Below are positions 8,730 to 33,142 of a DNA stretch of 37,558 nt, in pieces. The notes beneath the pieces were generated by a model. It had not been told where the DNA came from, did no database searches, and saw only the letters and a list, made by a program, of their open reading frames with translations. Source of the DNA: a virus; the IMG/VR virus record IMGVR_UViG_3300025133_000305, positions 1 to 37,558 of that record. One strand, 5' to 3'. Numbering within the stretch: position 1 is the stretch's first letter; each line of letters opens with the position of its first letter. A program made the position numbers and the translations under genes.

Positions 8730-10214
8730 ATGACGTACGGAGACAACGAGCACGGGAATCACCCACCACTCAATAACCCAAGGGGAAGACCAACGAGAAT
8801 TGGGTCCACCAAAGACATGGACATTTTTCTTTACAGCCACGTGGGCTACGGGCAGTATGGCATTGAGCAGTTTGACGCTAGTGAGTACGAGTCTATTCAA
8901 GCAGTCACCTGGAACTGGCGGTATAAGTACGGCACCATGTGGCTTACCTCCGCCCCTGGCTCAAACGACGATTGGTTCACTGCGTGGTATCGTACGCCGG
9001 GGACAAACTCTGCTTCAAGCACATCTGGCGCTGAAGGGACTCTCGGTACCAAATACGCCCACCACTTTAGGCAAAAGGACAATGCCGCTCGTGTAATGGG
9101 CAACATCTCCAACTCCCCCGCAACCATCTATGACAGAAGCGTCATTTGGCAAACGGCTACCTACAAGGACATGGAGAACGAATATACTGGGATGACAGGG
9201 CACACTGGAAATAGTACGACCATCCCCATGCGTGCAGACGCTGAAGGTGACATTATTCTTAGTGATGTCCCTGCCGACGGCGCAACGGTTACGATTACTG
9301 ACAATGCGTCCTCTGCCATTACTTATGAGTTTTACGCCTCTGACCCCTCAAACGCCAACACATGGGTTGACACGTCTGGGGGAACTGTGGCCGCAGTTAG
9401 AACGGAACTCGTAACAGCAATTGAGAGTCAAAAAGGCTCTTGCAACATTAGGGCTTATGAGTGCCCAAGGGAGTACAATACTGGTCGGGTATGGCTGTTT
9501 GCTAGCACAAATTCGCAAGAAGAGGGGAATGTAGCCATTACAAAAGCTTCTGATACAGGGAACAAGATTACTATTGTTGGCATGATGGGCGGAGCGCCTT
9601 CGGCCTACCTTAACCACACTTCCAATTACGGAAGTTACCATTATGGTACGAGTTGGATGTCCTCTCAACGAGGGGGGATTATTCTACAATCTACTGGAGT
9701 GCCCTGTGGCGGCACGAGTGGTGACTTAGTGAAGTTTGGTCACAGCAACAGCAGTACAAACAAGGACGGCTGGGGGCACAATGGAATGAGCTGTTCCAAT
9801 ACATACGGCGACCACAGTAGCGTTTTTTCTAAGTCCTTTTGTTGTAGCACATGGGCTATAGAAGCAGGGAATGGCTACTGGTGCTACCCATCCGGCAAAG
9901 GAGTAACGGACCCCCTCGACCCCCTCGGCAAATATGCACGGGGCCAATACGGCATTAACTCTCACAATCACTTCTTCCGTGCCCATACAGGCTCACAAAC
10001 AAACGCCACTCCGTTCGCACAGAACGAAACGAGCTACTCGGCGAACTCCGGCGTAACCTCTTATCGTGGACAGTCCCTTTTTGTTAAAGACCCTGGCGTT
10101 GCGTTTAGAGTCCGATTAACCGAACAACAAGGCACCCAAGGGCAAGAGCCAAGCGCATCCAACCCACCCTGCACCCTTAGCCTAATGCTGTATTGTAAGA
10201 AAAGGAGAAAATAG
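8730..10214 (+). CDS. Gly/Ser/Thr/Asn-rich virion surface protein candidate
   Basis: A 494-residue protein, low in Lys/Arg and rich in Gly, Ser, Thr, Asn and aromatic residues, as in phage fibre or head-decoration proteins. Residues about 168-290 form a beta module (GDIILSDVPADGATVTITD ... VAITKASDTGNKITIVGMMGG) that resembles a repeated module in phage structural proteins: TVTI-D, later GN-AIT and GM-GG. Cysteines cluster at CCSTW. It is first among the large late genes, before the portal. No T7 gp17-type tail fibre is present elsewhere, so it may bind the receptor. Head fibre is the alternative. Confidence 0.5.
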   Translation: MTYGDNEHGNHPPLNNPRGRPTRIGSTKDMDIFLYSHVGYGQYGIEQFDASEYESIQAVTWNWRYKYGTMWLTSAPGSNDDWFTAWYRTPGTNSASSTSGAEGTLGTKYAHHFRQKDNAARVMGNISNSPATIYDRSVIWQTATYKDMENEYTGMTGHTGNSTTIPMRADAEGDIILSDVPADGATVTITDNASSAITYEFYASDPSNANTWVDTSGGTVAAVRTELVTAIESQKGSCNIRAYECPREYNTGRVWLFASTNSQEEGNVAITKASDTGNKITIVGMMGGAPSAYLNHTSNYGSYHYGTSWMSSQRGGIILQSTGVPCGGTSGDLVKFGHSNSSTNKDGWGHNGMSCSNTYGDHSSVFSKSFCCSTWAIEAGNGYWCYPSGKGVTDPLDPLGKYARGQYGINSHNHFFRAHTGSQTNATPFAQNETSYSANSGVTSYRGQSLFVKDPGVAFRVRLTEQQGTQGQEPSASNPPCTLSLMLYCKKRRK

Positions 10215-14954: not shown

Positions 14955-17875
14955 TGGGTCTAGTCTCAAGGTCTATTGGTAATCTGATTGGCGGCGTAAG
15001 CCAACAGCCGGACAGTCTCCGTTATGCCAACATGGCAAGCGAGAGTATCAATGCCTTTCCAGACCTTGCGAACGGTCTTGACAAAAGGAATCCTACCGAG
15101 CACATAACTGAGCTCATCGATTCTTCGGGCGCCGGTTTGGACACTGCGACTACGTCTAAGTTTCATGTAATAAATAGGAGCCCCAGCGAGCGTTACGCTC
15201 TTGTATTTTATAACGACAGCGGTGGCGACCCTGCTATTAAGGCGTTTAACCTTTTATCGGGCGAAGAAGTTAATATCTATAATTCCGAGTCTGTTGCTCT
15301 TTCTGCCTCGGACCTTACAGGGTATCTACCGAATGGCACGCCAATGATATCCGATGTTGACCTTTTGACAGTTTCAGACCACACGTTTGTTCTAAATAAG
15401 GAGATTGAGACCGCCCTGTCTAGTACAACTACTGATGCTCAGACAGTGGAAGCGTTTGTCTCCATTAAAGCGGGCGCATACGCTCAGAAGTATGGCTTGT
15501 TAATTGATGGTGTGGAGTACAAGATTGACATGAGCGGCACCGGCGGCAATACAACGGTTCCACCTGACTCCCCAGCGTCTAATGACCCTGTAGACGGTGA
15601 GACCCCCGATGGTTCAAACCGTCATCATGCAAAATATGTCGGGACGGATGTCATTGCAGAATACTTGAAGTATGACATATTGACCACGGCGCTTGGTTGT
15701 TCTTGTGGTACAGGCACATTTAACAACGGCTCTGGGCAAACAGTGTCATGGGAAAATGCAACCGGCGGAAGTTTTAAACTCGAGTTTCATGGAAAAGCAC
15801 CTAATAACACGAGTATGGTCGCAACAACAGGAGCGATTGCCCACGACGCAGACGCAACTGCACTTGCATCGGCTATCGAGCTTTGCAGTGACGCCTTTAC
15901 TGTTTCGACTGTTACGGACAACTCTTCGGGTGCGCTCTCTTCCTTTAAAGTAAAGACTTCGAGGTGGGGCATTATTAATACCGAAAACGTTTACGCGAAT
16001 ATAGTTGAGAACACACTGTCCGCCTCTGTCGATACCTACAACGTAAACCGCTCAGGGCACGTCCTTCATATTCAGAAGCCAGACCCAACAACAGGCGACC
16101 CCACTGATTTCTCTATAGAAATGATAGAGGGTTCTGCTGACCGAAACATGAGTATTGCGATGGGCTCTGTAGAGTCCTTGTCGGACCTACCACCACGGGC
16201 CAACCACGGGACAATCCTGAAGGTTGCTGGCCTCGTTGACGACACCGCCGACGATTACTATGTCGAGTTCATTACGGATGATGATGGCGCAAGTGGCATG
16301 TCCTCTGGGCGGTGGGAGGAGACTGTTGGTTTTGGTGTTGAAACCTCGTGGGACGCAACGACAATGCCTCACGTTCTCGAGAGTCATATTGATGACGGTA
16401 GTGGCCCTGTTGGCGAAGCAAACGCCCCATATTTTATCTGGAACACATTTCCGTGGTCTGACCGCGAGTGCGGAGACGATGAAACGAACAAGGCATCTTC
16501 GTTTAAGGATACGACCATCCAGGCTATGGTGTTTCACCGCAATCGTTTTGGGTTAATTTCAGGGGAATCGCTAGCCCTTTCGGAGGCCGGCGAGCCCGGT
16601 AACTTTTGGCGCAACACGGTTATTGATTTGTTAGACTCGGACAGGATTGACATTACGGCACGGTCTAGAAAGCTTTCTTTGATAAAGAGTGCTGTTGAAG
16701 TTCAAGAGTCTCTTGTTTTGATTGCGGACCAAGTCCAGTTTAGGCTTGACGACGGTGGGACGCTTTTGACTCCATCATCTGCTGGTCTTCGCCAGGTCTC
16801 TGCATATGAAGTAAAGTCTGGTGTTCCTCCTGTAGCTGTTGGGACTGAGGCTTTCTATGTCCAGCGTCGCGGCGACTTCTCGGGGGTCAATCGGTTTTTT
16901 AATGCAAGCACGGGTTCGGCAAACATCTTTCGCTCATTGGACGCTACCCCCCACGTTCCTCGCTACATAAAGGGGAACATTGTCGATATGACATCGTCCG
17001 AAGGGCAGGGCCTACTTGCGTGTACTACTCAGACGTCTGGCACAGGTGCGGAGGCTAATGTTGTGTACATGCACAAGTGGGCTGATATTGGTGAGAGGCG
17101 AGTTCAGTCTGCTTGGTTTAAGTTTGACTTGGGTTCTGGGGCGACTATCCGTGGCATTGAGTTTGTTGAGGACGACCTTTACTTAGCGGTTGAGCGTTCA
17201 AGCACGCTATATCTGGAGAAGATTGCCCTTGGTGGTGGAATCGCAGACTCTGGGGCATGGTATAAGGCAAGGGTAGACCGCCGAATTAGCCATGACAACG
17301 CTGATGTAACAGTAACCTGGGATTCTGGGACAGGGAAGACGACTGTTAATGTCCCCTATGTTGTGACTGACGACGTAACCCTTGTAGAAAAACACGCTGG
17401 GGCACAGGCCGGCGGCACTTACGTCACAGAGACTCCTGAAGCGGCGAGTGGCGGAACGACGGACATTATTTTTGATGGGGACTACTCGTCTAAAGATTTC
17501 TGGGTTGGTGTTGACTACGAGATGCGCCATTCAATGAGTGACCCCAAACTGGTTGGACCGACACGAGGTGGGGAGAGCCGTGTCTTGACTGGTCGTTTCC
17601 ACGTTCGCCGTGTGTTTGTTGACGTAGCGTCAGCAGGTTCTTGGTTGGCCGAGGTTACGGCTGAAGGTCGTTCCGTTGCCTCTAAAGAATATGCGGCGGA
17701 CATGACAGGTTCTAATAGCTCAGTTGTAGAGCAGGAGGGTATTAACAATGTGCCTATCTTGGCAGTCTCAGGAGGATATACATTCGACATCGTCAACAGC
17801 ACACCTTACTCCTCTAGGTTCGTGGCTCTTGAGTACGAGGGTGATTTCAAAACCAGGAGTCGGAGAGTTGGCTAA
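14954..17875 (+). CDS. Tail tubular protein B (nozzle), T7 gp12-like
   Basis: A 973-residue protein, longer than T7 gp12 (794). The N-terminus SRSIGNLIGGVSQQPDSLRY is diagnostic. FRLDDGGTLLTPSSAGLRQVSAYEV and YVQRRGDFSGVNRFF mark the conserved core in the middle. The extra length lies partly in a Gly/Thr/Ser-rich insertion around residues 190-370, whose WENATGG ... LASAIELCSDAFTVSTVTDN part resembles the beta module of the 8730-10214 protein. The insertion may add surface contacts. The stop overlaps the next start. Confidence 0.93.
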   Translation: MGLVSRSIGNLIGGVSQQPDSLRYANMASESINAFPDLANGLDKRNPTEHITELIDSSGAGLDTATTSKFHVINRSPSERYALVFYNDSGGDPAIKAFNLLSGEEVNIYNSESVALSASDLTGYLPNGTPMISDVDLLTVSDHTFVLNKEIETALSSTTTDAQTVEAFVSIKAGAYAQKYGLLIDGVEYKIDMSGTGGNTTVPPDSPASNDPVDGETPDGSNRHHAKYVGTDVIAEYLKYDILTTALGCSCGTGTFNNGSGQTVSWENATGGSFKLEFHGKAPNNTSMVATTGAIAHDADATALASAIELCSDAFTVSTVTDNSSGALSSFKVKTSRWGIINTENVYANIVENTLSASVDTYNVNRSGHVLHIQKPDPTTGDPTDFSIEMIEGSADRNMSIAMGSVESLSDLPPRANHGTILKVAGLVDDTADDYYVEFITDDDGASGMSSGRWEETVGFGVETSWDATTMPHVLESHIDDGSGPVGEANAPYFIWNTFPWSDRECGDDETNKASSFKDTTIQAMVFHRNRFGLISGESLALSEAGEPGNFWRNTVIDLLDSDRIDITARSRKLSLIKSAVEVQESLVLIADQVQFRLDDGGTLLTPSSAGLRQVSAYEVKSGVPPVAVGTEAFYVQRRGDFSGVNRFFNASTGSANIFRSLDATPHVPRYIKGNIVDMTSSEGQGLLACTTQTSGTGAEANVVYMHKWADIGERRVQSAWFKFDLGSGATIRGIEFVEDDLYLAVERSSTLYLEKIALGGGIADSGAWYKARVDRRISHDNADVTVTWDSGTGKTTVNVPYVVTDDVTLVEKHAGAQAGGTYVTETPEAASGGTTDIIFDGDYSSKDFWVGVDYEMRHSMSDPKLVGPTRGGESRVLTGRFHVRRVFVDVASAGSWLAEVTAEGRSVASKEYAADMTGSNSSVVEQEGINNVPILAVSGGYTFDIVNSTPYSSRFVALEYEGDFKTRSRRVG

Positions 17876-18377
17876 AGCCGAAGTACAAATTGCGACAAGA
17901 GCTGACTGCTTTGACGTTGGTCGTCGTTTACGCTCGGACGATTGGTTGGAGATGAGATATCTAATGGGCGAGTGCGACCCGAGTTGGTCTCTTGACCTCC
18001 AGCGCATGTCGGCACCGCAGGAAACTTTTTGTCTTCGTTTTGATGGTCGGCGAGCGGCGATTTTCGGTTGCCCCGAAGGCCAGCCTGGGGTAGGGGTTCC
18101 CTGGATGATGGGGACGGATGACCTCCTGCGGCGTCGTTTTACATTCCACCACATGTCAAAGCGTGCGGTGAGCTATTGGGCGGCACAGTATTCGGTTTTG
18201 GCAAATGTTGTCTGGGAAGGAAGTTCCTCAATACCCTGGTTGCGCCGTTTAGGCTTCAGTGTTGGCGAGGACGTTGTTAGAGAGACTCCGTCTGGCGGCA
18301 AGTTTCTTGGTTTTAACTTAAAAGGAGGAAAGGTATGTGTCTCTTCGCAGGACTCGCATCGGCAGGAACAGCTCTAG
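17868..18377 (+). CDS. Internal virion protein A, T7 gp13-like (GNAT-fold)
   Basis: A 169-residue protein read from the TTG at 17868, which overlaps the upstream stop and has AGGAG (17855-17859) 8 bases before it. The frame is open up to an ATG at 17748, but that start lies well inside the nozzle gene. GVGVPWMMGTDDLLRRRFTF and the end SSIPWLRRLGFSVGEDVV match gp13-like proteins, which share the acetyltransferase fold but may lack activity. It assists incorporation of the other internal proteins. It overlaps the next gene by 43 bases. Confidence 0.75.
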   Translation: MAKAEVQIATRADCFDVGRRLRSDDWLEMRYLMGECDPSWSLDLQRMSAPQETFCLRFDGRRAAIFGCPEGQPGVGVPWMMGTDDLLRRRFTFHHMSKRAVSYWAAQYSVLANVVWEGSSSIPWLRRLGFSVGEDVVRETPSGGKFLGFNLKGGKVCVSSQDSHRQEQL

Positions 18378-18916
18378 CCGGCGGAGCGGCTCAAGCCGCA
18401 GTGATGGATAAGTTGCTTATGGCGGGCGTTCAGGGGGCTATGCAGATGCAAGCGGCCCGGGACCAGAATCAGGCGGCAGGTCGGGCAATGGAGCAAAACA
18501 AGGCGCTTGCAGTAACCTCGGCCAACCAACAGTACCAAGATATTTTATTACGCCAGCTTGAGGAGCAAGAAGCTTCGGCTGTAGAGATTGAGCGTTTAAT
18601 GAGTGAGAGTCGTCAGGCTGGCTCCACAGCGGCGCTTGCTGGTGCGGAAGCTGGCATCTCTGGCGGTTCATTGGAGGAGAAGTTACAGGCTTTCTCTCGA
18701 GCGGAATCGCAGTACCAGCTCAACACACAAAGGAACATGTCGATGCGTCGTGCGGCTTATGGTCAACAAATGAGAGGAACTCGGAACCAAGCCGAGGCAC
18801 GCATTGAATCTTTCCGTCCCAACCTTTCTTATTACGGTCTTGATGACTTCCTCTTGGGAGTTGGTACGGCTGGTGTAGGGGCTTACTACGACTTCTTCCC
18901 TCCACCCACTGACTAG
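18335..18916 (+). CDS. Internal virion protein B, T7 gp14-like
   Basis: A 193-residue protein, the size of T7 gp14 (196). The N-terminus MCLFAGLASAGTALAGGAAQ is Ala/Gly-rich and hydrophobic. It is followed by a long Gln/Ala-rich helix (residues about 40-150) with the usual AALAGAEAGISGGSLEEKL and RAESQYQLNTQRNMSM. Such proteins form the outer-membrane part of the channel for DNA ejection. It has a strong AAGGAGGAAAGGT before the ATG. Confidence 0.85.
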   Translation: MCLFAGLASAGTALAGGAAQAAVMDKLLMAGVQGAMQMQAARDQNQAAGRAMEQNKALAVTSANQQYQDILLRQLEEQEASAVEIERLMSESRQAGSTAALAGAEAGISGGSLEEKLQAFSRAESQYQLNTQRNMSMRRAAYGQQMRGTRNQAEARIESFRPNLSYYGLDDFLLGVGTAGVGAYYDFFPPPTD

Positions 18917-18927
18917 GGTTAGAAAAA

Positions 18928-21351
18928 ATGGCTAACGAAAACTTAAGGACACGGGCTGGAACCTACGCGGCATCAAGCCGCTCTGGGTTTAGTCCATTTA
19001 AGGGGCTCCAGCCAGCGGCAGGGACTACCCCCGATGCATACTATCGCCCCGACATATCCTCTCAGCTAACCGCTTCCGAGGGACGGTTCTTGACTTTAGC
19101 GAAGACATTCTCTGGTCTATCTCCGACACTTAGTCGCATGGTTGATGTTCAGTTCAAGGGCGCTGTTGCTGGCGAACAGTCAGCCGTTGCGTCGGCGGTT
19201 GCGGGATTGGACCCAAGAGAGACAAGCCAGAAAGAATGGTCCACCCTCGTGAAAGAACATAGTGAGCTGGCGTCAACGAGCCCGTGGTCGAAAGTCTTTT
19301 TTGACGAGGAAAAAGGAAAAGCGAGGGTCTTGTTGTATCAAAACGACCTGGAAGAGGCTCGTGCAGAGCTCGAAAACCCTGATGGGGAAACTGACCTTGA
19401 GACAGTCTTTGCCGGTCTACGCGCCGAGTACCTCGAGGGTGGTTCAGTCTGGACGAAACAGAAATTTATTGCAGGTGCCTCCGCTGTTGAAGACTCGTTT
19501 AGAAGACAGGTGTCCGCAGTAAAGAACGAAAGAGTTCTACAGGAACAGGACCGAATCTTTGTAAACGGTGTGGCCACCCTTACTACTGATGCACTGGCTG
19601 GTGAACCGGGGATACCCAAAGAAGAGTTTCTAGCTCTTCTTGGAGAATACTCCACGCTCACAGGAGACCCTGGCACGGCCAGGAAATTGGCTTTAGATGC
19701 TTTTGAGTTCGCAAGCATAGCTTTTATTGAAGCTGGCGGTAGCCAAGGCGATGCAGGCACTAGGCTTGGACTTCTGTTTGCTTCCCTTGAAGAGTTAGAG
19801 GGTAAGTCGGGACCACTCTTTACAAAAACAGAGATGACAGAACTAGAGCTTAGTGTTCAACAAACACTCGACCAGAAGGAAGGTGCGGATAGCCGCATCA
19901 TAGCAAAGTACAAGGACCCAATCAACGATTTGGTGGTGAAGACCCTGGGGAAGTCAGATGAGGAAGCTCGTGCGCTTTTTGAGACACAACTCAAAACATG
20001 GTGGGCTAAAGAAGGCCAGCCAGATGGAGACACTTCGTACGAACTTCGCGGCCTTATGAAGATGCGCCAGAAAATGAAAGAAGAAGACTCGATATCGTCT
20101 CCCATTTGGAACGACATCACCGCCGAAATTGAACGTGGCGAATTTACGGAAACAAACATTTTTGAGAGCGGATATTCCATTCAGTTACAGCGCGAACTTC
20201 AGGAAATCTGGCACACCAGAGCTCCCGCAGGTTTGGCTAGAGCACATGTAAGCTCGCAATTTTTCGACGAACTTCTTAAGAGTCGTCTTGGATTCGGAGA
20301 GAAAAACCTATCTTACTTTTCGGTCTGGGCCGAGCGGGCTCGTAACCATGTGGCGACATTCATTCAAGATAAGATAGTTAGCAACACAGAAGACGTGACC
20401 AATAGTGCCTTGCTAGCCCGCGACGGCGTCTCGTGGACGAATGAAGCACTTGAGGGTTTCGACGAGCCGGTGCTTGACCAGGATGGTGGTCGGGTGGCTC
20501 CTGGTTCTAGTCAGCATGTTCCACCTGCCCACATCCCAATCGACGAGTTACCTCCCACGGAGCAAGTGAAACGGCAAGCTGTCGAGGCGGAAACCACAGA
20601 GGTGGAAAAAGGAAGGACACAGACCGCGCTCCAACTTTTTGAACCATTCTTGGAAAGCTCAGGGTTTCCCAGGACACTAAATGCTCTTCCTCCCGTTCAA
20701 AGAGTTCTGTCGTTTCTCCAGCAACCTTCAGGATTGTCCCTTGGTGGGTGGTTTGATAGAAACCGCGCTCACGATGCACAACCGGCTGAGAACATGGACC
20801 CCGGTGCAATTGCCGCCGCCTACATACTCCACAAGGATACGAGTGAGGTAGGAGGACGTGAGAAAAGTGAGGTATACCAGGAGGGAGTCGGGCCCTTACG
20901 AAAAAACCAGAAGGCTCTAACGAAGGCTTTGGTGGAAGCGGTACCCCTTATTACCGAGATGGTAGGGCGATTGAATCGTGGGAAACAGGTTTCTGGCCCA
21001 AAGTACACGACTGCTGTTGAAGTTTATCGGATGGCTGGTGGTGGTCGAGACGGTGGTCGAGGGGGTCTATCTATAGAGGAGCTAGAATCTGGCGAACTAA
21101 AGACCTTGGGTGGAACCGTAACGGTTCCACAAGAGCTCTTCCTTCCGACAAAGTGGCCTATGGTTGACTCGTGGGAAGAGCTTGAGAGAATGAAGCCGGA
21201 AGGGTGGCAAAAAATTCTAGAAGCTCTACACCCCGACATCCAAGCCCGCTTGAAGCTCGAGGCTGAAGCTTTTTCCAGGGAGCCCTGGGAAGAGCTTGAA
21301 CAGAAGCAGGGAAACCTTTTAATGCTCCTCTTAATGAGACCTTTAACCTAA
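18928..21351 (+). CDS. Internal virion protein C, T7 gp15-like
   Basis: An 807-residue protein, close to T7 gp15 (747), with a Ser/Gly-rich start and a long helical body. By order (gp14-like before, gp16-like after) it is the gp15 equivalent, part of the periplasmic ejection tunnel. Residues 650-661, YQEGVGPLRKNQ, match residues 1708-1719 of the next protein at 9 of 12 positions, although the DNA has drifted. A Gly/Arg-rich stretch (MAGGGRDGGRGG) follows. Confidence 0.8.
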   Translation: MANENLRTRAGTYAASSRSGFSPFKGLQPAAGTTPDAYYRPDISSQLTASEGRFLTLAKTFSGLSPTLSRMVDVQFKGAVAGEQSAVASAVAGLDPRETSQKEWSTLVKEHSELASTSPWSKVFFDEEKGKARVLLYQNDLEEARAELENPDGETDLETVFAGLRAEYLEGGSVWTKQKFIAGASAVEDSFRRQVSAVKNERVLQEQDRIFVNGVATLTTDALAGEPGIPKEEFLALLGEYSTLTGDPGTARKLALDAFEFASIAFIEAGGSQGDAGTRLGLLFASLEELEGKSGPLFTKTEMTELELSVQQTLDQKEGADSRIIAKYKDPINDLVVKTLGKSDEEARALFETQLKTWWAKEGQPDGDTSYELRGLMKMRQKMKEEDSISSPIWNDITAEIERGEFTETNIFESGYSIQLQRELQEIWHTRAPAGLARAHVSSQFFDELLKSRLGFGEKNLSYFSVWAERARNHVATFIQDKIVSNTEDVTNSALLARDGVSWTNEALEGFDEPVLDQDGGRVAPGSSQHVPPAHIPIDELPPTEQVKRQAVEAETTEVEKGRTQTALQLFEPFLESSGFPRTLNALPPVQRVLSFLQQPSGLSLGGWFDRNRAHDAQPAENMDPGAIAAAYILHKDTSEVGGREKSEVYQEGVGPLRKNQKALTKALVEAVPLITEMVGRLNRGKQVSGPKYTTAVEVYRMAGGGRDGGRGGLSIEELESGELKTLGGTVTVPQELFLPTKWPMVDSWEELERMKPEGWQKILEALHPDIQARLKLEAEAFSREPWEELEQKQGNLLMLLLMRPLT

Positions 21352-21360
21352 TACAGAACA

Positions 21361-24300
21361 ATGACATTTGAGTTCGACCAGAACGCATTCAATCGAGACT
21401 TCGGCCCAGGGGCCAGAGAAGAGGAAGAGAGTTTTTTCCAGCAACTGTTCCTGGCGCCATTGCGTGGTGCTGAGGGTGCCGTACAAGGTATCTACAACAT
21501 GGCCGATTGGATGACCTTTGACGCTTTGCCGGATTACGACAAGAGACTTCTTGGTCATTCATCTCACTGGGCTCCTGCTCTCGTTGAAGGGATGACTCAG
21601 TTTGTTGTTCCGTTTGCCGGACTTGGACTTGCCTCAAAAGGCTCCAAAGCGTTTACAGCATTAACTAGGGCAACGCGCCTGAGCGGGAAGCTACCAAAAA
21701 AGGCAAGTGATTACATCGGAAGATATGTTGTTGGCGGCGCTATGGCGGACATGGTTGCTTTTAACGGGGACGAGGGTCGCTTCTCAGACTTGGTTCAGCT
21801 ATACCCCGCGCTCCAGAACCCACTTACTGAGTTTCTCGCAACGGACGAGAACGACTCCTTCTTAGAAGGTCGGATGAAGAATGTTCTTGAGGGTGGGATT
21901 ATGGGTCTCGCGTTCGATGGCTTCATTGCGGCGGCAAAGGTTACGCGGAAAATCGGTTTTGACAAGGCAAAGGGTCGAACAGACGAGGCCATTGCGAAGG
22001 ACCTTGAGAACGACCCCGAGTACATGACCCAGGACAAGAAGATTAGACAAGCCCACTCCGCTATGTGGCGAGAAGAGTTTGGTTATGACCACGATGTAGC
22101 TCTCTCAACGGACGCGATGATGGACGCAATGGGGCTTGACCGCTCACGAATTGTTCACGACGCGGACTTGTCGATGTTAAACAAGGTTGCTGATGGAAAC
22201 TACACCCTGTACCAACTTCCCCCAGGCGGTTCCGAGAAGTTCGAGAAGTTCTACCATAAGACTTTGCAGGGTCTTGAGAGGTTTGACGACAATATGTCTT
22301 TAGCTCAAGTCAGGGATGCTGTTGGTGGGAAGGAACTAGAATGGGAATTTACAGGTCTTGGGGCCATGCTTGATGAGTTGCCAGATGCAACTGTGGGTGA
22401 CGCTAAGGCGGCGTTTGAGCCTGTGATGTTGAGTGAGGAGATTCGTGTATCGTCAGGAGGAAGCGAATACATTGCAGGTCTTCGTCGCAACCAACGCTAC
22501 AATCAATATGCTCTTGATGAGGTTCTTGATGTCCTTGAACTCGCCGCACAGGAAAATGTCGATGCTCACACGGCGTTGAGCAATGACTACCCCTCGTGGC
22601 AAGCTTTGCACGATGGAGGGTTTCAAGAACTGCTCGATGATGACAACTGGGCGCAGATAGTCCTAGATGACCTTGGTGTGACCAAGCCTGAGCTTTCACC
22701 AGACAGGATAACAAAGTTCGGCCAATACGTCCCTGATGATATCGAGAACTACCGTGAACTAGTCGTTAATTTTGAAAACGCAGAGGCCGGAATGGATTAT
22801 GGTCAGCACTTCGATTACAACACTGTACTTCATGCTCGCTTTGGTGACGAGACGGGCCGAGGAGGCAAAAAGATTCTCCAGGTCTTTGAGATTCAGAGTG
22901 ATTGGAGTGCAAAGGGGCGGGAATTAGGGTATGAGGGAGAATTTCAATGGGAAGGTAAGACATATAAGGAAGGAGACTTAAAGGCTGTTCAAACAAAAAG
23001 TGCCGCCGGCAGTGGCTGGCGCATCGTTGACAAAGACGGCACTCCGTTAAAGGGTGCTGATGCCACGAATTTCCCAGACTCGCTGACCACCGAGTCCGGA
23101 GGAGCGAACTACGCTTCGGTATCCACTGCGAAATCTATACTTTGGTCGTGGATTGACGGCGCAGACCAATACGGAGTACGACCTCCACGTCACCCCTTTA
23201 TGAAGTCATGGCCGGAACACGCTGTCCAGCGTATGTTTAAGTTGGCCGCAGAAGAAGGATATGACGGGATTCGTTTTGTCTCTGATGCAGAAGTAAAAGC
23301 CATCCAAGGGATTGACCCTGGTGCCACCACTTTGTACACACACCGTATTCCCAAGGCGGCAAAGGTCTACGCCAAGAAGAAGGGGTTCCATGCGCCAGAA
23401 GTTCGGCAAATAGACGATGGGTCTTGGGCTGTGTTTGAGGCCGACAAGCGTGTGACAAGCAGAACTTATGCGACAAAAGAGGGGGCTGAAAAGACCGCAG
23501 GGAAACCGCATGGGACACCCACCAAAGAGTCCACGATGGCGGGTTACCGCATTGTGCAATCTCAAGACAGTGGCCGTTACCATGTTCGGGATGAAGCAGG
23601 GTACTCTCGTGGAGGCACGACTTATGAGACTCTTAAAGAAGCGGAAGACTGGATTGCAGATAAAACGACAGTCGATACCTACCTCTTCGATGATGCTTCC
23701 CGTGCAAAGGTAGGCGAGGCAGACCCATTGTTCCAAAGGCCAGGTGCCGCAGGAATTCCAGATGGAGCTCCACGCGCCTACGTTGCATTTAAGGGTGGGA
23801 AAGCTTACATAAACGCACTTAACAACCCTAACCCATCTTCAGGCGTTCACGAGCTTGCTCATGTTGCGCGGAAGTTCCTGTTCGACCTTGAGGTTAAGCC
23901 TGACGAGCGTGCTGGGATTAGTGATGACATGATAAAGGTTGCCGGTGATTGGGCCGGTGCGAGGTTCGACGAGAACACTGGCCGATATTCGTGGGATAGG
24001 GCGGCAGAAGAAAAGTTTGCCAAGGGATTTGAGAGGTACCTGCACACAGGCAAGGCTCCGTCCTCGAAACTTAAAGAGTTGTTTTCTCGCTTTGCGTCAT
24101 GGATGCGTAGTGTTTACACTAACATAACAGGCTCCGCGATTGATGTTGACGTTTCCCCTGAGATGGAGAAAGTGTTTAACGCTCTCGTTCAGAGAGGCGA
24201 CCTTCCAGAGGTAAAGGGTCGAAGGACTAGAGCAAAAGAAGACACGGGCGGCATTGGTTTCCTGGGCCAAGAAAGCAAGTACGGAACTGGAGATGAGTTC

Positions 24301-27300
24301 GAGAAACTCACAGCGATTCCCAAGCGAGGGCCAAACGCATCGAGGTATCGTCAAGGTCGAGTGCGGCAAGGTGAAGCCGCGTTTTCCGAGGACAACATGC
24401 CAAAGACTGTTGCGCGAATTGAACAGGTTAGGGAGGAGGTTCCTGATGCTCTGAAGTCTAAGGACTCGTGGTACTCTGCGAACGTGAGACTCTTCGGGGA
24501 AGAGAGGGTACCCATCGCTCCAAGAGGTTTACTCAGCGACCTCAAACCAGGGGCTATGGCTGGCAAGTTAAGGTCGTTGACTCCGCAACAGAAGGCTTCG
24601 GTAGATGCGGGTCTTGCGTTAACGAAAGAAGTTGGGGCCTCACTCGAAGAGCCGGCTGACCTTGCGCGACTACTTTACTGGTCTACACTTTCAACAGGGA
24701 TTTCCCCATACTTCCAAGAAGCGGCGTTCCTCGACACCTTTACGCACATTGGTAGGTTTATTGACAATGCCCTTGGTGGAAGGTTCGACTTGGACGAGTA
24801 CATTGATTACTTTGACAGACTGCTTCCGGCAGGTGGCGAGAAGGTTGGGGTTTCGGGAAAGTCTAACATCAATACGTTTGGCAGGACCTTCTTGACCATG
24901 ATTAACGACTCTGCTAAAGCTGGTGACGATAAGCTCGGCAGGGTTTTTGAGTCGTGGAAGACCGAGGGTCGCTCTTCTCAAGATGTCATTACAGACTTCT
25001 GGCGCGAATTCCCGAAGAAGGAGGGAGAGGGGACCCCAGGGTTGAACAACAAGTTGCTCTTCTTTGCAAGACTAGCATCAGGGAACCACGACACCGTCGT
25101 TCTGGACCGCATCCAACTACGCGATTTCTGGGATGTTGATAGCGCGGAAAACCTACGCACACTTGTTATGGACGGGAGTGGTTTGGCTGTGTACGATTTG
25201 TTGAATCGCTCGATTGACTTACGGGTTAAAGATATTTACAAAGAAGCAGGGCGACCCGATGAGGCTTCTATTGGCCGGCTCCACTGGGAGACTTGGGTCC
25301 TTTCGGGCGAGGACGATGTGGGCCACGAGACACTCAGGGCTTTCCTTGAGGGTACTAAGTACGAGGGTGGTATTCGCCAGGGCAAGCTAGATGCGTACGA
25401 TTATGGTATAGTCTATGGCCCACGTCCTGGCGACAACCATAGGCTACTGGAAACTCCCCACGGCCATGTTGTTATGACAAGAAAGGAGTGGGACTCGGTG
25501 AAGGCCGAATTCAAAACAACGCCAGGGTTTGACCCTGGTTTCACACTAAAAAGTCGGGCAAATAAAAACTTGCCCTGGAGCGAAGATGACAGAATCTACA
25601 AAGAAGGAATCGAATTACTCGCCGCACTCAGAAGCGGACGTATCCTCGAGCGAACAGGGGGAAAGTCTGAACCAGTTGTTAGGAAACTTAGCAAAGACGA
25701 CCTCGCCGATATCAAGCGAGGCTACAACCGATGGAAATCAGGAACCGCCGTACGACGGGCTCGTTTTTCGATTATTAAGGAGACGGGCCAAGCTTTCTCC
25801 AGAACAAAAAAAAGTCTACGACTCGCAAAGCGAATACTGGCAGTAGGTGTTAAGCAGACATATGTTCCAGAAGCGGCAACGGCCACGCTCTTTAAAAGGG
25901 CTGGCATTAAGGCCAAGACTGTTGTTGAACTTGACCCATCGTCGGCAAAAGCCCGAGAGCTTTTTTCCGATGGTCTAAGTAACAAGCACCCAGATAACTG
26001 GCAGGTGAGTAACTTGTCACCCGACGAGCTTGTAGGTCACCGCATCTTTGTCTCGGATGAAGGGGGTGCCGGCATCGCCCTGCGCGGCGACGAGATTGTT
26101 GGCCTTTGGAAGCTTCCGACGGCCCCTGTGGGTGTGGCCCATTCTCTCTTGAGGGTGTGCATTGAAGAGGGTGGACGACGTGGCGACTGTTACGACACGT
26201 TCCTTATGGACATTTATTCCGCACACGGTGCGACTGTTTCAGCCAGGTTGGACTTTGACCCCGCCCTTGCCCCTGAAGGGATGCCCGACAATATACGGGT
26301 ACTCGAGCCAGACGTTGTTTCGTTCCACATAGACAATAAGCGCAGAAGTTTATACGAACAGGGCGAGGTCCGTAACAGGGTGGACGACTATGACGAGTTG
26401 CTTGATGATGCTAAAACGGATGTTGACGCTGTTGAGGCCAAACGCATTGCGGATAGCGAGGAGGGTGGACAAGAGGTGTTCTACCAGGAAGGGCAAGACC
26501 CTCTCCGCAAGGACCAGTCTGCGCCCTTTGAGCCCTTGAACATTGACAGGGTGCACACCAGTAGCGACATAGCTCGTGGGATAGATGGCTTTTTACGTCA
26601 AGAAGAGGTTGACGTACCGACTCAGAGTCTTGAGGAGGCTCACTCGGCTGGCATTGAGGCGGCGGATGAGCTTTATGGGACTCATGGTGAAACTACGCCG
26701 GACGAGTTCATTGCAAAGTTCCTCGAAAAAACAGAGGACGTACAATACTACGCTTCTCAACTTGGTGCCTTGCGAAACTATCTTGCCGGAATTGGTGAGC
26801 AATATGTGACCAAGCTTAGAGCTGGGTTCGACGAGAATACTCAGTGGGTTGGTTCTGACGCGGAGCTTGCTGAGATTTTGAGGGGGCGTGCGGTCATCTA
26901 CAATGCTTCTGAGGCCGTGAGGTTAAGACAGGCGGCGATTGCTCAAGCACTTGGGGCTCAACGGGTTCGCTACGACGGCTCTAAGGTTCCACCCATTCCG
27001 GCTAGCCGCGTAGAACCAGAGTCTTTAATCGAGGCAAATGGTGGGCGCGAGAAGGTTATCAGGATGTTAGAGCAAGACCTGGTTTCTAGGGAGATGAATC
27101 CCGCACGCACATTGCCCTTCAATCCGAAGAACCGCTCTCACGCGCTTGCCGAGTATTGGATAAACAGCATTCTCTCAGGGCCGGTTACACAGGCGGTAAA
27201 CTTGACAGGCGGCTTCATGCGTACAGTTGCCAAGCCACTTGAATTGGCATTTGGTTATGCAATGCAGGGCAAGCGAGGACAGGCGAAGCGTGAGATTTCT

Positions 27301-29190
27301 GAGCTGAGTTACATGGCTGAGTCGTTCCGTGACTCTTGCAATCTTGCCGCCCACGCGATAAGGGGTGACAAGTCCATCTTGATACCCGAGGGTGGCACGA
27401 GTCTTCACGAGTCTAGAAAGTCTACTCGTTCAATCAGTGCTAGGGGCCAGGGTCTGCGCGAGGATTCTCTTCAAGGAATTATGCTGAACTGGTTGGGCTC
27501 TTTTTTGAACCTGCCGTCCCGATTCCTGATGGGCGGTGACGAGTTCTTTAAGCAGTTAAATTACCAGGCTCACTTGCGGCGCAAGATTCATGACATTGCC
27601 GTAGAGCGTTTCGTTGACCCTGATGAGCGAGCTAGCTTTATTGAGAAGATGCGTTTGGCTGTTGGCGAGGACGGGCGTTTTTACGAGAAGGAAACTCTTC
27701 GTTCCCGTGCAGAAGCGGAAGCCAAGGGGAAGGGTCTTTCGGGTGACGAGGCCAGCGAGTTCATTTCTAGAAGGGTCAGTGATTTGTGGGATTCCGACGT
27801 ACACAAGGCGGCGGTTGAGGGCCGGCTCCAGGCGAAAGAAGGAACATACACGGAAGACATAAACACGAGTGCTGGAGAGCAGGGTTTGACCCAAATGTTT
27901 CTCGGTGGCTCGGTACGAGGGACGGTAACAAACGTCAGTGCTCGTTGGGCCAGCATGGTGTCTGCTGTTCCGGCTTTAAGATTCATCACGCCATTTGTTC
28001 GCACGCCGACTAACATCTTGAAGTTCTTTATGGACCGTTCGATAGGTGTTGTGTCTGATTCTGCTCGGCTACTTCTGGATGCAGAGATGCGGAGGGGGAG
28101 TACTCCAAAGGGTAGGGCTGACCTGATTGGACGCGCCGCGACGGGCGCAACTCTGTTTGGTACTGCGACGTTCCTTGCAATGCAGAAGGACGAGAATGGA
28201 CTTCCAATGTTGACTGGTGCTGGTCCGACGGACCCAGACGAACGCAAGATTTGGGAGAGCACGGGGTGGAAACCATACTCTTACCGCACCTCGGATGGGT
28301 ACATCGGTTACCGAAGGCTTGACCCAGCGGCGATTTTCTTTGGTCTTGTTGCGGACATGGTGCAAGAGAGTACGGTTTCAAAGTTACTGAACAAGGAGCC
28401 TGAATGGGGTAAGGCTGTGATGGTTGGCATGGTAAACAACTTAGCGTCTAAGACATACCTTTCGGGCGCACTAAACATGGCACGGATGTTCAATAACCCT
28501 GGACAAGAGTTTCAGTACATCAAAAACCAGTGGGCATCGAGTCTCGCTCCAATGTCTAACTTTGTGAACCAGGCTGTTAACCCGTCACTGAAAGGTGACA
28601 TGGTATTCCATGAGTTACGAAGTTCTGCTGATGCTTTCAGGTCAAGGTTCTTTATGTCAGACCCCTCGAAGTTACCTGTGAAGCGAAATGTTTTTGGTGA
28701 CCCTGTGAAGAGGGATACTGGTGTTGGCCCTGACTTTATGTCGCCACTTCGTTATTACGAGAGCGTTAATAGTAGGCTGACTCAAGAGATGGTTCGCATC
28801 GGAGCGGGTTTTGGCCCACCACGGAAGAGGGATTCAAGCGGGATTGACTGGACTGATTACACGAAGGGTGAGAGTGAGCAGACTGCTTATGACCGCTGGC
28901 TCGAGTTACACGGGAAGGTCAAGTTGCGTGGTCGAACACTTAAGCAAACACTGGACAGTCTAGTCCGTTCTCGCAGTTATCAGCGTCTTCCTGTTGCGGG
29001 TGCTGGTGAACTTGAGAGCCCAAGGGTTTCTTTAATGAGGAGCGTTTTGAGCAAATTTAGGGCGAAAGCCAAACAACAAACTTTGCGCGAGTTCGGTGAC
29101 CTTATTAGGGACACGAACGCCGTCAAGTATAACGAGGACGCACTCCGTAGGGGTGCGACAGAAGAACAGTTAATAAGATTGACCCGATGA
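21361..29190 (+). CDS. Giant internal virion protein D (gp16-like) with polyvalent enzyme-like domains
   Basis: A 2,609-residue protein, twice T7 gp16 (1,318), using 21% of the genome. Visible parts: a helical start; residues about 460-700 with the polyvalent-protein pattern EIQSDW (510-515) and HPFMKSWPEHAVQRMFKLAAEEGYDGIRF; the linker DPLFQRPG (788-795); a zincin-like domain with HELAH (830-834) and a candidate third ligand E891; an unassigned helical region about 1000-1450; a GNAT-like domain about 1500-1640 (AGIALRGDEIVGLWKLP); YQEGQDPLRKDQ (1708-1719); and a long C-terminal helical region with LPSRFLMGGDEFFKQLNY and FVRTPTNILKF, typical of large phage ejection proteins. No transglycosylase motif is seen. 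Confidence 0.85.
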   Translation: MTFEFDQNAFNRDFGPGAREEEESFFQQLFLAPLRGAEGAVQGIYNMADWMTFDALPDYDKRLLGHSSHWAPALVEGMTQFVVPFAGLGLASKGSKAFTALTRATRLSGKLPKKASDYIGRYVVGGAMADMVAFNGDEGRFSDLVQLYPALQNPLTEFLATDENDSFLEGRMKNVLEGGIMGLAFDGFIAAAKVTRKIGFDKAKGRTDEAIAKDLENDPEYMTQDKKIRQAHSAMWREEFGYDHDVALSTDAMMDAMGLDRSRIVHDADLSMLNKVADGNYTLYQLPPGGSEKFEKFYHKTLQGLERFDDNMSLAQVRDAVGGKELEWEFTGLGAMLDELPDATVGDAKAAFEPVMLSEEIRVSSGGSEYIAGLRRNQRYNQYALDEVLDVLELAAQENVDAHTALSNDYPSWQALHDGGFQELLDDDNWAQIVLDDLGVTKPELSPDRITKFGQYVPDDIENYRELVVNFENAEAGMDYGQHFDYNTVLHARFGDETGRGGKKILQVFEIQSDWSAKGRELGYEGEFQWEGKTYKEGDLKAVQTKSAAGSGWRIVDKDGTPLKGADATNFPDSLTTESGGANYASVSTAKSILWSWIDGADQYGVRPPRHPFMKSWPEHAVQRMFKLAAEEGYDGIRFVSDAEVKAIQGIDPGATTLYTHRIPKAAKVYAKKKGFHAPEVRQIDDGSWAVFEADKRVTSRTYATKEGAEKTAGKPHGTPTKESTMAGYRIVQSQDSGRYHVRDEAGYSRGGTTYETLKEAEDWIADKTTVDTYLFDDASRAKVGEADPLFQRPGAAGIPDGAPRAYVAFKGGKAYINALNNPNPSSGVHELAHVARKFLFDLEVKPDERAGISDDMIKVAGDWAGARFDENTGRYSWDRAAEEKFAKGFERYLHTGKAPSSKLKELFSRFASWMRSVYTNITGSAIDVDVSPEMEKVFNALVQRGDLPEVKGRRTRAKEDTGGIGFLGQESKYGTGDEFEKLTAIPKRGPNASRYRQGRVRQGEAAFSEDNMPKTVARIEQVREEVPDALKSKDSWYSANVRLFGEERVPIAPRGLLSDLKPGAMAGKLRSLTPQQKASVDAGLALTKEVGASLEEPADLARLLYWSTLSTGISPYFQEAAFLDTFTHIGRFIDNALGGRFDLDEYIDYFDRLLPAGGEKVGVSGKSNINTFGRTFLTMINDSAKAGDDKLGRVFESWKTEGRSSQDVITDFWREFPKKEGEGTPGLNNKLLFFARLASGNHDTVVLDRIQLRDFWDVDSAENLRTLVMDGSGLAVYDLLNRSIDLRVKDIYKEAGRPDEASIGRLHWETWVLSGEDDVGHETLRAFLEGTKYEGGIRQGKLDAYDYGIVYGPRPGDNHRLLETPHGHVVMTRKEWDSVKAEFKTTPGFDPGFTLKSRANKNLPWSEDDRIYKEGIELLAALRSGRILERTGGKSEPVVRKLSKDDLADIKRGYNRWKSGTAVRRARFSIIKETGQAFSRTKKSLRLAKRILAVGVKQTYVPEAATATLFKRAGIKAKTVVELDPSSAKARELFSDGLSNKHPDNWQVSNLSPDELVGHRIFVSDEGGAGIALRGDEIVGLWKLPTAPVGVAHSLLRVCIEEGGRRGDCYDTFLMDIYSAHGATVSARLDFDPALAPEGMPDNIRVLEPDVVSFHIDNKRRSLYEQGEVRNRVDDYDELLDDAKTDVDAVEAKRIADSEEGGQEVFYQEGQDPLRKDQSAPFEPLNIDRVHTSSDIARGIDGFLRQEEVDVPTQSLEEAHSAGIEAADELYGTHGETTPDEFIAKFLEKTEDVQYYASQLGALRNYLAGIGEQYVTKLRAGFDENTQWVGSDAELAEILRGRAVIYNASEAVRLRQAAIAQALGAQRVRYDGSKVPPIPASRVEPESLIEANGGREKVIRMLEQDLVSREMNPARTLPFNPKNRSHALAEYWINSILSGPVTQAVNLTGGFMRTVAKPLELAFGYAMQGKRGQAKREISELSYMAESFRDSCNLAAHAIRGDKSILIPEGGTSLHESRKSTRSISARGQGLREDSLQGIMLNWLGSFLNLPSRFLMGGDEFFKQLNYQAHLRRKIHDIAVERFVDPDERASFIEKMRLAVGEDGRFYEKETLRSRAEAEAKGKGLSGDEASEFISRRVSDLWDSDVHKAAVEGRLQAKEGTYTEDINTSAGEQGLTQMFLGGSVRGTVTNVSARWASMVSAVPALRFITPFVRTPTNILKFFMDRSIGVVSDSARLLLDAEMRRGSTPKGRADLIGRAATGATLFGTATFLAMQKDENGLPMLTGAGPTDPDERKIWESTGWKPYSYRTSDGYIGYRRLDPAAIFFGLVADMVQESTVSKLLNKEPEWGKAVMVGMVNNLASKTYLSGALNMARMFNNPGQEFQYIKNQWASSLAPMSNFVNQAVNPSLKGDMVFHELRSSADAFRSRFFMSDPSKLPVKRNVFGDPVKRDTGVGPDFMSPLRYYESVNSRLTQEMVRIGAGFGPPRKRDSSGIDWTDYTKGESEQTAYDRWLELHGKVKLRGRTLKQTLDSLVRSRSYQRLPVAGAGELESPRVSLMRSVLSKFRAKAKQQTLREFGDLIRDTNAVKYNEDALRRGATEEQLIRLTR

Positions 29191-29722: not shown

Positions 29723-31442
29723 GGTACCCCCAGAAATCCTTGCCTTACGGAAGGCGTTCGAGGACTTTGAGGATTTTGCTGACGCTGTTTGGAAGGCGAT
29801 TGACCTTCCCCCGTTGACGGCTAGACAGCGCGAGATTGCAAACTTTCTCCAGCATGGCCCAAAGAGGGGTTTCATCGCGGCCTTTCGGGGTGTAGGGAAG
29901 TCCTACATCTCTGCGTGCTACGCTGTGTGGCGGTTGTTTCATAACTGGGACGAGCAGGTTCTTGTTATGTCGGGCTCGAGTGCCCGTTCCGTTGACTTTA
30001 GCTTGTGGGCCAGGAAGCTTTTGGATAACCCTAAGTTGCCTTTTTTGCACCACCTGCGCCCGTCTTCTGACCAGCGTGATTCTAAGTTATCCTGGGATGT
30101 TGGACCAGCACGCCTCCAGCACTCAGCTAGCTTTGCGGCGGTGTCAGTTGGCTCGAGCATTCAGGGTCGTCGTTGCACACTAGCTATATTGGACGATGCC
30201 GAACAGGCCAACAACTCTGGCTCACAGCTACAGCGAGAAACACTACTCCGAAATGTTATGGATGTGGAGGCAATGCTCACTCCTGGTAAACAATCTCGGA
30301 TTGTGTGCCTTGGTACATTCCAGTCCTTAAACTCGGTCTATTTGACAATGGCCGCTGAGAGGGGCTACGAAGCCCTGTACATCCCCGCCAGGGTTCCCGA
30401 GGAAATAGACGAGTATGACGGCAAACTCTCGCCAGGGGTCTTAGAAATGGCTATTGGGGGTACACCAGGAGAACCCACCGACCCTGAGCGTTTTGAGGAC
30501 GCACATCTTACTCAGATGGAGGTCGGAATGGGTCAGTTGCAATGGCAGATTCAGATGATGTTGTCCACAAAAGTATCGGACAGGCTGTCTCATCCATTGG
30601 CCCTCGAGGACTTCATCGTTTGGGACGGGGTGAACCCATTTGGTGCGCCTCAAAAGATAATCGCTGGTCGTGCTTCTGAGAATAAGATTGAAGACCTTCC
30701 ATGCTACGGCCTCCCAGGTGATGCCTGGTATGCTCCAGCATTTGTTGACCAAAAGGAAATGTTGCCTTATGGACACCTGATAATGTCGATTGACCCTGCT
30801 GGCTCAAGTGGTGCTGACGAAACGGCATATGTTGTGTTGGGTGCTGTCCCTGGTGGAATTTATATTTTAGATGTTGGTGGGTTTGTAGACGGGTCGAGCA
30901 AGCAAACGCTTGAGCGGCTAGCAAAGATTGCAGAGCGGTGGAAGGTGCGAGAAATTATTGTTGAAAACAATATGCAAGCGTGGCCCCTGCTCTTTCAACA
31001 GACTCTTCACTCTGTCTACCCTTGCCAAATGACCGAAGTCAGGGCAACGAAAAACAAGGTCGAGCGTATCGCTGGCACACTTGAACCAGTCTTAAGAACA
31101 GGGCAGTTGATTATCTCTCGGCGCGTAATCGAGACCGAGTACCGAGCAAGCATTAAAACAAAAGACAATCAAAGAGCAAGAGCAAGGCTACTCCAGGTTC
31201 AGGCCGCTATGCTAAAGCGTGGCGAGAAGAACGGTGGCATTGAACACGATGACCGTCTAGACGCATTGTCCCAGGGAGTTGCCGAGTTGGCCCCTAAGTT
31301 TCTACATAGCGAAACCGAGAGAGCCGTCAAGTCAATGGTGGAAGCACGCCAAGCCGAAGAGCTTGAGAACTTTATGGCGAACTGTTTCGGGAGTCGTTTC
31401 AAAAGGAGTGGGAATGTATGGGTGAACCCGAGGAAACTCTAG
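29712..31442 (+). CDS. Large terminase subunit (T7 gp19-like)
   Basis: A 576-residue protein, close to T7 gp19 (586). ATPase part: AAFRGVGKS (Walker A, residues 56-64) and LAILDDAE (Walker B, about 157-164). Nuclease part: MSIDPAGSSGADETAYVVLG with the first catalytic Asp at 361, and EHDDRLDALSQGV near the end. It cuts and pumps DNA into the head with a small subunit, perhaps the protein at 2407-2715. The start is GTG, overlapping the upstream gene by 11 bases; the 3' end overlaps the next gene by 25 bases. Confidence 0.95.
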   Translation: MAHKVPPEILALRKAFEDFEDFADAVWKAIDLPPLTARQREIANFLQHGPKRGFIAAFRGVGKSYISACYAVWRLFHNWDEQVLVMSGSSARSVDFSLWARKLLDNPKLPFLHHLRPSSDQRDSKLSWDVGPARLQHSASFAAVSVGSSIQGRRCTLAILDDAEQANNSGSQLQRETLLRNVMDVEAMLTPGKQSRIVCLGTFQSLNSVYLTMAAERGYEALYIPARVPEEIDEYDGKLSPGVLEMAIGGTPGEPTDPERFEDAHLTQMEVGMGQLQWQIQMMLSTKVSDRLSHPLALEDFIVWDGVNPFGAPQKIIAGRASENKIEDLPCYGLPGDAWYAPAFVDQKEMLPYGHLIMSIDPAGSSGADETAYVVLGAVPGGIYILDVGGFVDGSSKQTLERLAKIAERWKVREIIVENNMQAWPLLFQQTLHSVYPCQMTEVRATKNKVERIAGTLEPVLRTGQLIISRRVIETEYRASIKTKDNQRARARLLQVQAAMLKRGEKNGGIEHDDRLDALSQGVAELAPKFLHSETERAVKSMVEARQAEELENFMANCFGSRFKRSGNVWVNPRKL

Positions 31443-31762
31443 CCCCGACCACCACGCCAAAACTAAGGAAGGAGTTGCTCTCTGTGCTGGAAATCCTCAA
31501 GTGGGAAATTCCAATTCCGACTGAGGTTAAGTTGCGCGTTGCTTTTATGAAGGATGCGTTCGGCTGTGTTGACCTTAAGGAGAAAACCAATGAGCGGTAT
31601 TTCCTTATTACAATTTGTAAGGGTATTGACTCTGTCCACGCAAAGGACACCCTCTTGCACGAATACGCACATTGCATAAGCTGGGAAACATCAGAAGAAG
31701 ACCACGGCCCAGAATGGGGACTGGCCTTTGCAAAATGTTACACCATAATCTCTGGCGACTAG
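31418..31762 (+). CDS. SprT-like zinc metallopeptidase
   Basis: A 114-residue protein. TLLHEYAHCISWE carries the HExxH zinc motif, and DHGPEWGLAFAKCY supplies a likely third His ligand, in the order seen in SprT/WSS1-like minimal peptidases. Cellular SprT-like proteins act on proteins bound to DNA; the phage role is unknown. It starts inside the end of the large terminase with AGGAG before the ATG. It could act on virion or host proteins. Confidence 0.7.
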   Translation: MGEPEETLAPTTTPKLRKELLSVLEILKWEIPIPTEVKLRVAFMKDAFGCVDLKEKTNERYFLITICKGIDSVHAKDTLLHEYAHCISWETSEEDHGPEWGLAFAKCYTIISGD

Positions 31763-32546: not shown

Positions 32547-32741
32547 CTTCTTCTTGGGTCGTCCCCCTCGTCGGCAGTCACGACATCCGAGGCTCATCCT
32601 TGCCACAAGGTTTTGCCTCAAAACAAGAACCTCTTTGCCGCATGAACACTTGCACACGAAGGCTCGCCGCCGTCGTCCTGTTGGACAAGGGACAGGCTCT
32701 GCCTCTTTCAAGACAGTCCACTCGCCGTAAGTTTTGTTCAT
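32538..32741 (-). CDS. Small zinc-ribbon protein
   Basis: A 67-residue basic protein. YGEWTVLKEAEPV, then CKCSCGKEVLVLRQNLVARMSLGCRDCRRG, is a treble-clef zinc module often found in phage DNA-binding proteins and homing-endonuclease-associated parts, with Cys pairs at both ends. It has a polylysine tail. It is coupled to the HIT gene upstream (GAGCGATGA junction). No nuclease core is present, so the DNA-binding module stands alone. Confidence 0.65.
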   Translation of the reverse strand: MNKTYGEWTVLKEAEPVPCPTGRRRRAFVCKCSCGKEVLVLRQNLVARMSLGCRDCRRGGRPKKKKQ

Positions 32742-33142
32742 CGCTCCACCTCCTCAGTATTGTTTAGTGCTTCTTTGCGATAGTCTGCTTCGTCAGGGAA
32801 AACATTCCTAACACCGCAAGGCTTTCCACCATCATCTTCTGTTCGTGGAATAATATGCCAATGCAAATGACTGATTGTTTGCCCTGCGTGTGTTCCCTCA
32901 TTTACTCCAATGTTAAAATCAGTAGCGACGCTGGACAGAGAACACAGTTGTTTTGCTTCTCTAATAGCACTTTGTAAGTCAGCCCACTCTTGAACCTCAT
33001 ACTGTGAAACATGAAGCAAGTGGCGTTTAGGAACAACAAGCAGATGTCCTTTCGTTACTGGGTATTTGTCTTTCACGATGATGTGATGGTCAGTTTTTCT
33101 GCCTGTGGCATCGCAAAATATACATCCTGTGGATTGTGCCAT
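32738..33142 (-). CDS. HIT-family nucleotide hydrolase/transferase
   Basis: A 134-residue protein. The histidine triad is HLHWHIIPR (H92, H94, H96), with the upstream KGHLLVVPKRH and TDFNIGVNEGTHAGQTI typical of the family. CIFC near the N-terminus forms half of a zinc site. HIT proteins split dinucleotide polyphosphates such as Ap4A or adenylylated intermediates. The phage use may be to change stress nucleotides or to reverse abortive ligation; this is inference. It starts 3 bases after the integrase stop with GGAG before it. Confidence 0.9.
   Translation of the reverse strand: MAQSTGCIFCDATGRKTDHHIIVKDKYPVTKGHLLVVPKRHLLHVSQYEVQEWADLQSAIREAKQLCSLSSVATDFNIGVNEGTHAGQTISHLHWHIIPRTEDDGGKPCGVRNVFPDEADYRKEALNNTEEVER

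Follow-up and report, generated by a model that had tools for sequence, protein, structure and literature searches.

A phage protein of the internal-virion-protein-D type with a variable slot of candidate polyvalent cargo

The locus considered here raises the question of what a podovirus might do with an open reading frame of 2,609 codons in the place where T7 has gp16, and whether the enzyme-like domains in the middle of the encoded protein could be carried into the host along with the DNA. The window, by which I mean the whole stretch of DNA analysed, is one virus record of 37,558 bases, a single contig of an uncultivated virus.

The giant frame and its conserved ends

By its gene content the window belongs to a temperate podovirus, combining a T7-like virion module with a lambda-like module for replication and recombination and with an integrase. 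The virion module runs in the order portal (PF12236), scaffold-like protein (phrog_1052), capsid (Gp10A-like), tube, nozzle, two small internal virion proteins, the gene in the gp15 place, the giant ORF, and the large subunit of a T7-type terminase. The two small proteins are an internal virion protein at 17748..18377 (+; phrog_308, E=4.2e-21) and a gp14-like internal virion protein at 18335..18916 (+; PF24072 T7_gp14, E=1.4e-16; phrog_805). The 807-aa protein that follows (18928..21351, +) is assigned to the gp15 place by position and by a weak phmmer match (1.6e-4) to the gp15-place protein of one relative (L023); it finds no match in Pfam and is without a wall-hydrolase domain. Elsewhere in the window lie a 494-aa protein upstream of the portal (8730-10214, +) without Pfam or PHROG match and, adjoining the integrase, a short SprT-like metallopeptidase match (31418-31762, +; E=1.5e-5) and a HIT-domain protein (32738-33142, −; E=1.4e-18).

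The giant ORF (21361-29190, +) begins with ATG and continues without an internal stop, its base composition even across the whole gene. An earlier note on this DNA had put it in the gp16 place, and it does stand there, after the gp14- and gp15-place genes. That the protein ends like other phage ejection proteins, as the note also held, agrees with its match to the internal virion protein family phrog_6651 (E=1.2e-43) and with the 72 phage records matched by tblastn. Two features of that family are found here: a homologous C-terminal region of some 650-720 aa, and a place after the gp14- and gp15-place genes and before tail fibre or terminase genes. The open frame, the family match, and the relatives together lead me to describe the whole gene as encoding an ejection protein of the internal-virion-protein-D type with inserted polyvalent cargo.

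Both ends of the protein match proteins annotated as internal virion protein D in pelagiphages, roseophages, and prophages of alpha- and gammaproteobacteria. The pelagiphage and roseophage proteins match the C-terminal 700 residues, several of them also match the N-terminal residues 55-285, and nothing between is matched. A conserved N-terminal frame (residues ~20-264; 21418..22152, +), present in all complete relatives examined, and a conserved C-terminal frame (residues ~1714-2609; 26500..29187, +; alignment A1) may thus be distinguished from a slot (residues ~290-1713; 22228..26499, +) that is missing or replaced in relatives and varies in length and content. The matches of HTVC200P, S30C28, ProddE, and CRP-114 are confined to regions outside the slot. 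Residues 244 and 337 of HTVC200P (1,201 aa) correspond to residues 197 and 1726 of the window protein. The ends of ordinary relatives come together in proteins of about 1,170-1,340 residues, whereas the window protein has about 1,420 residues inserted. End pieces, gene order, and neighbours are the same in HTVC200P, CRP-114, and S30C28; what differs is that these proteins have 1,201-1,334 aa and no cargo insert, as compared to 2,609 aa and at least three added domains.

With the whole protein as query, neither viral nor genome contigs yielded a close relative, but profiles of the C-terminal frame did find relatives: at least 526 in viral contigs confirmed by tblastn, 80 of which were retained, and 28 loci in bacterial genomes, prophages among them, including those of Azospirillum, Chelatococcus, Solimonas, Nitrincola, and Leisingera. 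The complete relatives from bacterial genomes have about 970-1,310 aa (mostly 1,170-1,310), and none carries the three cargo domains described below. In Leisingera sp. ANG-M7 two ORFs, one of 268 and the other of 912 aa, share the ejection frame between them. A contig binned as archaeal, in a metagenome-assembled genome labelled Euryarchaeota, also has a frame protein (32% identity to that of the window), probably through contamination by phage. PDB sequences gave nothing with the whole protein or with the C-frame profile.

The likeness to T7 gp16 lies in the place in the genome and in the expected role as largest ejection protein. Homology was not detected, either by profile against sequence (hmmsearch no better than shuffles) or by profile against profile (hhalign probability under 1%), and "gp16" is therefore a positional term here: the earlier attribution holds for the place and not for descent. 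The largest ejection protein of T7 is released from the virion together with the DNA, its C-terminal part extending as far as the inner membrane and the cytoplasm (PMC8954989). Given the lack of a detectable relation, transferring that mechanism to the window protein depends on position and on the gp14-like neighbour, which, rather than any proof by gp16 homology, suggest a T7-like working of this family. T7 gp16 also differs from the window protein in bearing a transglycosylase at its N-terminus and in being free of cargo. The earlier note had seen no transglycosylase, and indeed neither the giant ORF (no SLT match) nor the gp15-place protein nor any other window ORF among those scanned yielded a transglycosylase or lysozyme, but the absence is not special to this protein: ordinary relatives, by inspection, also have no transglycosylase-like N-terminus. 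A wall hydrolase occurs in only a few of 45 gp15-place relatives. A review of ejection proteins gives sizes of 609-1337 aa for gp16-like proteins and describes the swapping of wall hydrolase domains; the words cargo and effector are absent from it (PMC8954989).

Domains within the slot

The earlier note had proposed three domains within the protein, with limits close to those found here. None of the three is named by Pfam in the window protein. The first (residues ~480-690; 22798..23430, +) takes its name from the motif EIQSDW, which occurs once, at residues 510-515. A single-sequence phmmer search with it found 84 relatives (best 9e-20), and more than 580 relatives are present in viral contigs, in a family without a Pfam name. 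The domain claimed by the earlier note is thus present, its relatives above chance, but the copy no longer has the TTGxQ motif, which 70 of the 85 members retain (alignment A8). Its profile found nothing among PDB sequences. A Foldseek search, with a model that did not include the GNAT-like domain, gave weak matches of the EIQSDW region to GNATs (best E 0.37), and a comparison of EIQSDW and GNAT profiles gave no match. A limited literature search found no paper on EIQSDW phage proteins, though some may exist beyond its range. Two copies of the domain, together with ART-PolyVal, occur in a 2,387-aa protein of Dolichospermum phage Dfl-JY45 (2337-9500 of locus L005).

The second is a zincin-like metallopeptidase domain of the CLCA_X type (residues ~790-945; 23728..24195, +), with a single HELAH at residues 830-834. 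It has 62 phmmer relatives (single sequence, best 2e-39), and the residues of its HExxH helix and the downstream Glu ligand (H830, E831, H834, E884) are invariant in 29 sequences (alignment A6). An AF2 model of residues 440-962, made from a 64-row alignment, has pLDDT 87-96 over most of the domain and shows two strands, the HELAH helix, a beta hairpin, and then, as the next core helix, one bearing the conserved Glu. The zincin proposed earlier is in this way upheld by relatives and by predicted structure. The best match of its profile to PDB sequences is the zincin of lethal factor, a weak one (E=0.041), while no zincin is among the best 50 Foldseek matches of the model; a structural link to lethal factor was also reported by Iyer et al. 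for such domains (PMC5512222). Window residues 777-947 match residues 752-924 of Bbp10 from Bordetella phage BPP-1 (8e-14), a protein whose residues 700-1000 served as a seed of the CLCA_X family (PMC3650047). The domain in Bbp10 and other CLCA_X zincins is the same, but the protein that carries it differs from that of the window. In Bbp10 the zincin has LPD22 and PBECR1 beside it.

The third is GNAT-like (residues ~1510-1660; 25888..26340, +), with 48 phmmer relatives (single sequence, best 1e-16). The window copy keeps all columns invariant across 12 sequences (alignment A7), and the loop after the fourth strand, which in GNATs holds the acyl-CoA pyrophosphate with Q/RxxGxG/A, is degenerate in that alignment. 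The fold was modelled on a relative, the L098 protein with GNAT-like and EIQSDW domains, standing in for the window copy. In that model strands and helices follow the GNAT order, and the best solved matches in Foldseek are GCN5, NatB, Naa50, RimJ, and others (probability up to 0.99, with a modest best E of 0.016). The relatives and the modelled topology agree with the earlier assignment. The same domain is fused to the C-terminus of a VG15/MuF-like minor head protein in Microbacterium phage Caron (gp4), a second virion carrier, different from the frame considered here. GNATs need acyl-CoA, which is cytoplasmic, and the cytoplasm is therefore the likely site of action of this domain.

The rest of the slot is less readily assigned. 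For residues 690-790 and 950-1520 hardly any relatives could be detected; between about 960 and 1500 (24238..25860, +) there is no identified domain, and a weak match to relative L018 appears only at 1163-1272.

Turnover of the slot among relatives

Profiles of the three domains, built from the window copies, were used to search all ORFs of the loci. All 47 complete relatives from viral contigs have both ends, separated by 35 to 1,645 residues as judged by the BLAST limits. A maximum-likelihood tree of 68 C-terminal frames, made by quick search and with SH-aLRT support only, calls for at least 10 gains or losses of an insert of more than 700 aa and for at least four changes in the presence of the zincin; tree and counts, built on the relatives most similar to the C-frame of the window, describe that neighbourhood. 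A single supported clade contains both a protein with no cargo (L028) and one with EIQSDW and zincin (L045). The nearest relative (L018, 2,666 aa, C-frame 52% identical), which comes from another sample, has the same design of end, insert, and end, with a slot of similar size and a different large cargo: a zincin at another place and a methyltransferase-like match.

The zincin is found in at least a dozen other frame proteins, at differing places in the slot, and EIQSDW in two (L042 and L045); within this set all three domains occur together on the frame only in the window protein. Each of them is also met in other giant phage proteins, alone or with one of the other two. Outside the frame, EIQSDW and zincin are paired in 12 loci, GNAT-like domain and EIQSDW in four (phage proteins of L098, L101, L102, and L142), and GNAT and zincin in about 30, where many loci are close copies from one phage group and the independent events accordingly few.

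The slots of relatives also carry ADP-ribosyltransferase (ART-PolyVal), LPD37, and methyltransferase-like domains, which belong to the repertoire of polyvalent proteins, as defined, with zincin and GNAT domains, by Iyer et al. in 2017 (PMC5512222). Two features of that class are found in the window protein: disparate, putatively catalytic domains, two or more, in one large polypeptide (zincin and GNAT-like, with EIQSDW besides), and a gene encoded among virion or transfer genes. A named Pfam polyvalent domain (LPD or ART-PolyVal), common in the class and not obligatory, is absent from the window protein and present in the slots of relatives. N4 virion RNA polymerase, P1 DdrB, and giants like Bbp10 likewise combine several unrelated enzyme domains in one protein of the virion module, sharing the zincin as a common domain and GNAT and ART as partners. 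What sets the window protein apart from those described is its carrier, a frame of internal virion protein D at both ends with a swappable middle; the words ejection, gp16, and internal virion are absent from the main text of Iyer et al. (PMC5512222). The varying size and content of the insert, and the recurrence of its domains elsewhere, indicate a polyvalent protein built on the frame of an ejection protein, its cargo slot being variable.

Possible delivery of the cargo

The reading I favour, at a probability of roughly 0.6, is that this is the gene for the largest ejection protein (internal virion protein D, in the gp16 place) of a temperate T7-like podovirus, and that exchangeable cargo between its conserved ends is injected and acts in the host before phage expression. 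Presence in the virion, injection, and enzyme activity of the window protein are what I infer from its frame, place, and domains. The protein would be packed in the internal core and would refold through the tail alongside the gp14- and gp15-place proteins, its C-terminal frame reaching the cytoplasm with the slot domains travelling along. There the cargo would act prior to the expression of any phage gene, the GNAT-like domain perhaps modifying a host or defence protein with cytoplasmic acetyl-CoA, and the zincin either cutting the cargo free from the frame or cleaving a host target.

The zincin might instead act only in assembly, cutting the polyprotein before or during packaging, with the cargo processed or perhaps removed and not injected. 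Autoproteolysis by such domains has been discussed, with the processing of P1 DdrB before packaging cited as a case (PMC5512222), and the zincin is the commonest of the three cargo domains in this gp16-place set. However, many members have a large slot without a recognised zincin, so that processing by it is not general, and N4 virion RNA polymerase, which has a zincin, nevertheless enters the virion uncut (PMC5512222). An LFQ-like motif in the linkers between domains was considered as the cleavage site and dropped, since it is barely enriched (161 observed against 136 expected). I regard assembly processing as unlikely. A further suggestion places the action of the insert in the periplasm or at the envelope, where it would help passage in lieu of the transglycosylase, perhaps through cleavage of envelope proteins. 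It draws on the failure to find a wall hydrolase in the window and on the position of the insert directly after the N-terminal frame, which in the T7 model is the part closest to the periplasmic segment (PMC8954989). Ordinary relatives free of the insert are also without a transglycosylase, so nothing needs replacing, and the dependence of GNATs on acyl-CoA also tells against a role outside the cytoplasm; I consider the suggestion improbable.

Might the insert have no function at all, consisting of former effector domains that keep their folds and no useful activity? The loss of TTGxQ and the long stretches almost devoid of relatives are what one would expect of such filler, but the zincin and the GNAT-like domain retain every residue invariant in their alignments and the frame of 2,609 codons remains open, which makes degeneration a poor explanation, slightly poorer than action on the envelope. 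That assembly has wrongly joined two genes into one long frame, a worry with a record consisting of one uncultivated contig, is scarcely credible, given the same design in L018 from another sample, the even base composition, and the existence of intermediate forms.

Returning to injected cargo, polyvalent proteins are thought to be injected, their carrier mostly unclear. Here the cargo lies inside a frame whose relatives are annotated as ejection-type proteins, which makes delivery plausible by design, and a virus with enzyme-like domains between such ends may bring enzymes into the host from the very start of infection. A broader proposal, on which I would give even odds, is that the internal-virion-protein-D proteins of many temperate and lytic podoviruses serve as a general delivery vehicle, a conserved frame with a hypervariable effector slot (zincin, GNAT, EIQSDW, ART, LPD37, methyltransferase-like) exchanged between phages and pushed in with the DNA, and that EIQSDW represents an enzyme family so far unrecognised, perhaps GNAT-like, that has spread among the polyvalent proteins of phages. 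If so, the role of gp16-place proteins would widen from a conduit for DNA to one that also delivers effectors, perhaps against host defences. Close relatives with and without cargo provide natural controls.

Two minor observations may be added. Limnohabitans phage DC33 (PQ492659.1) is filed under Inoviridae, which looks wrong, yet has a 39-kb genome with a 3,125-aa polyvalent protein of tailed-phage type. Finally, a motif is shared by the gp15-place protein (EVYQEGVGPLRKNQ, at 20872-20913, residue 649) and the giant protein (EVFYQEGQDPLRKDQ, at 26479-26523, residue 1707), where it sits at the end of the cargo slot; it is perhaps a docking or processing site.
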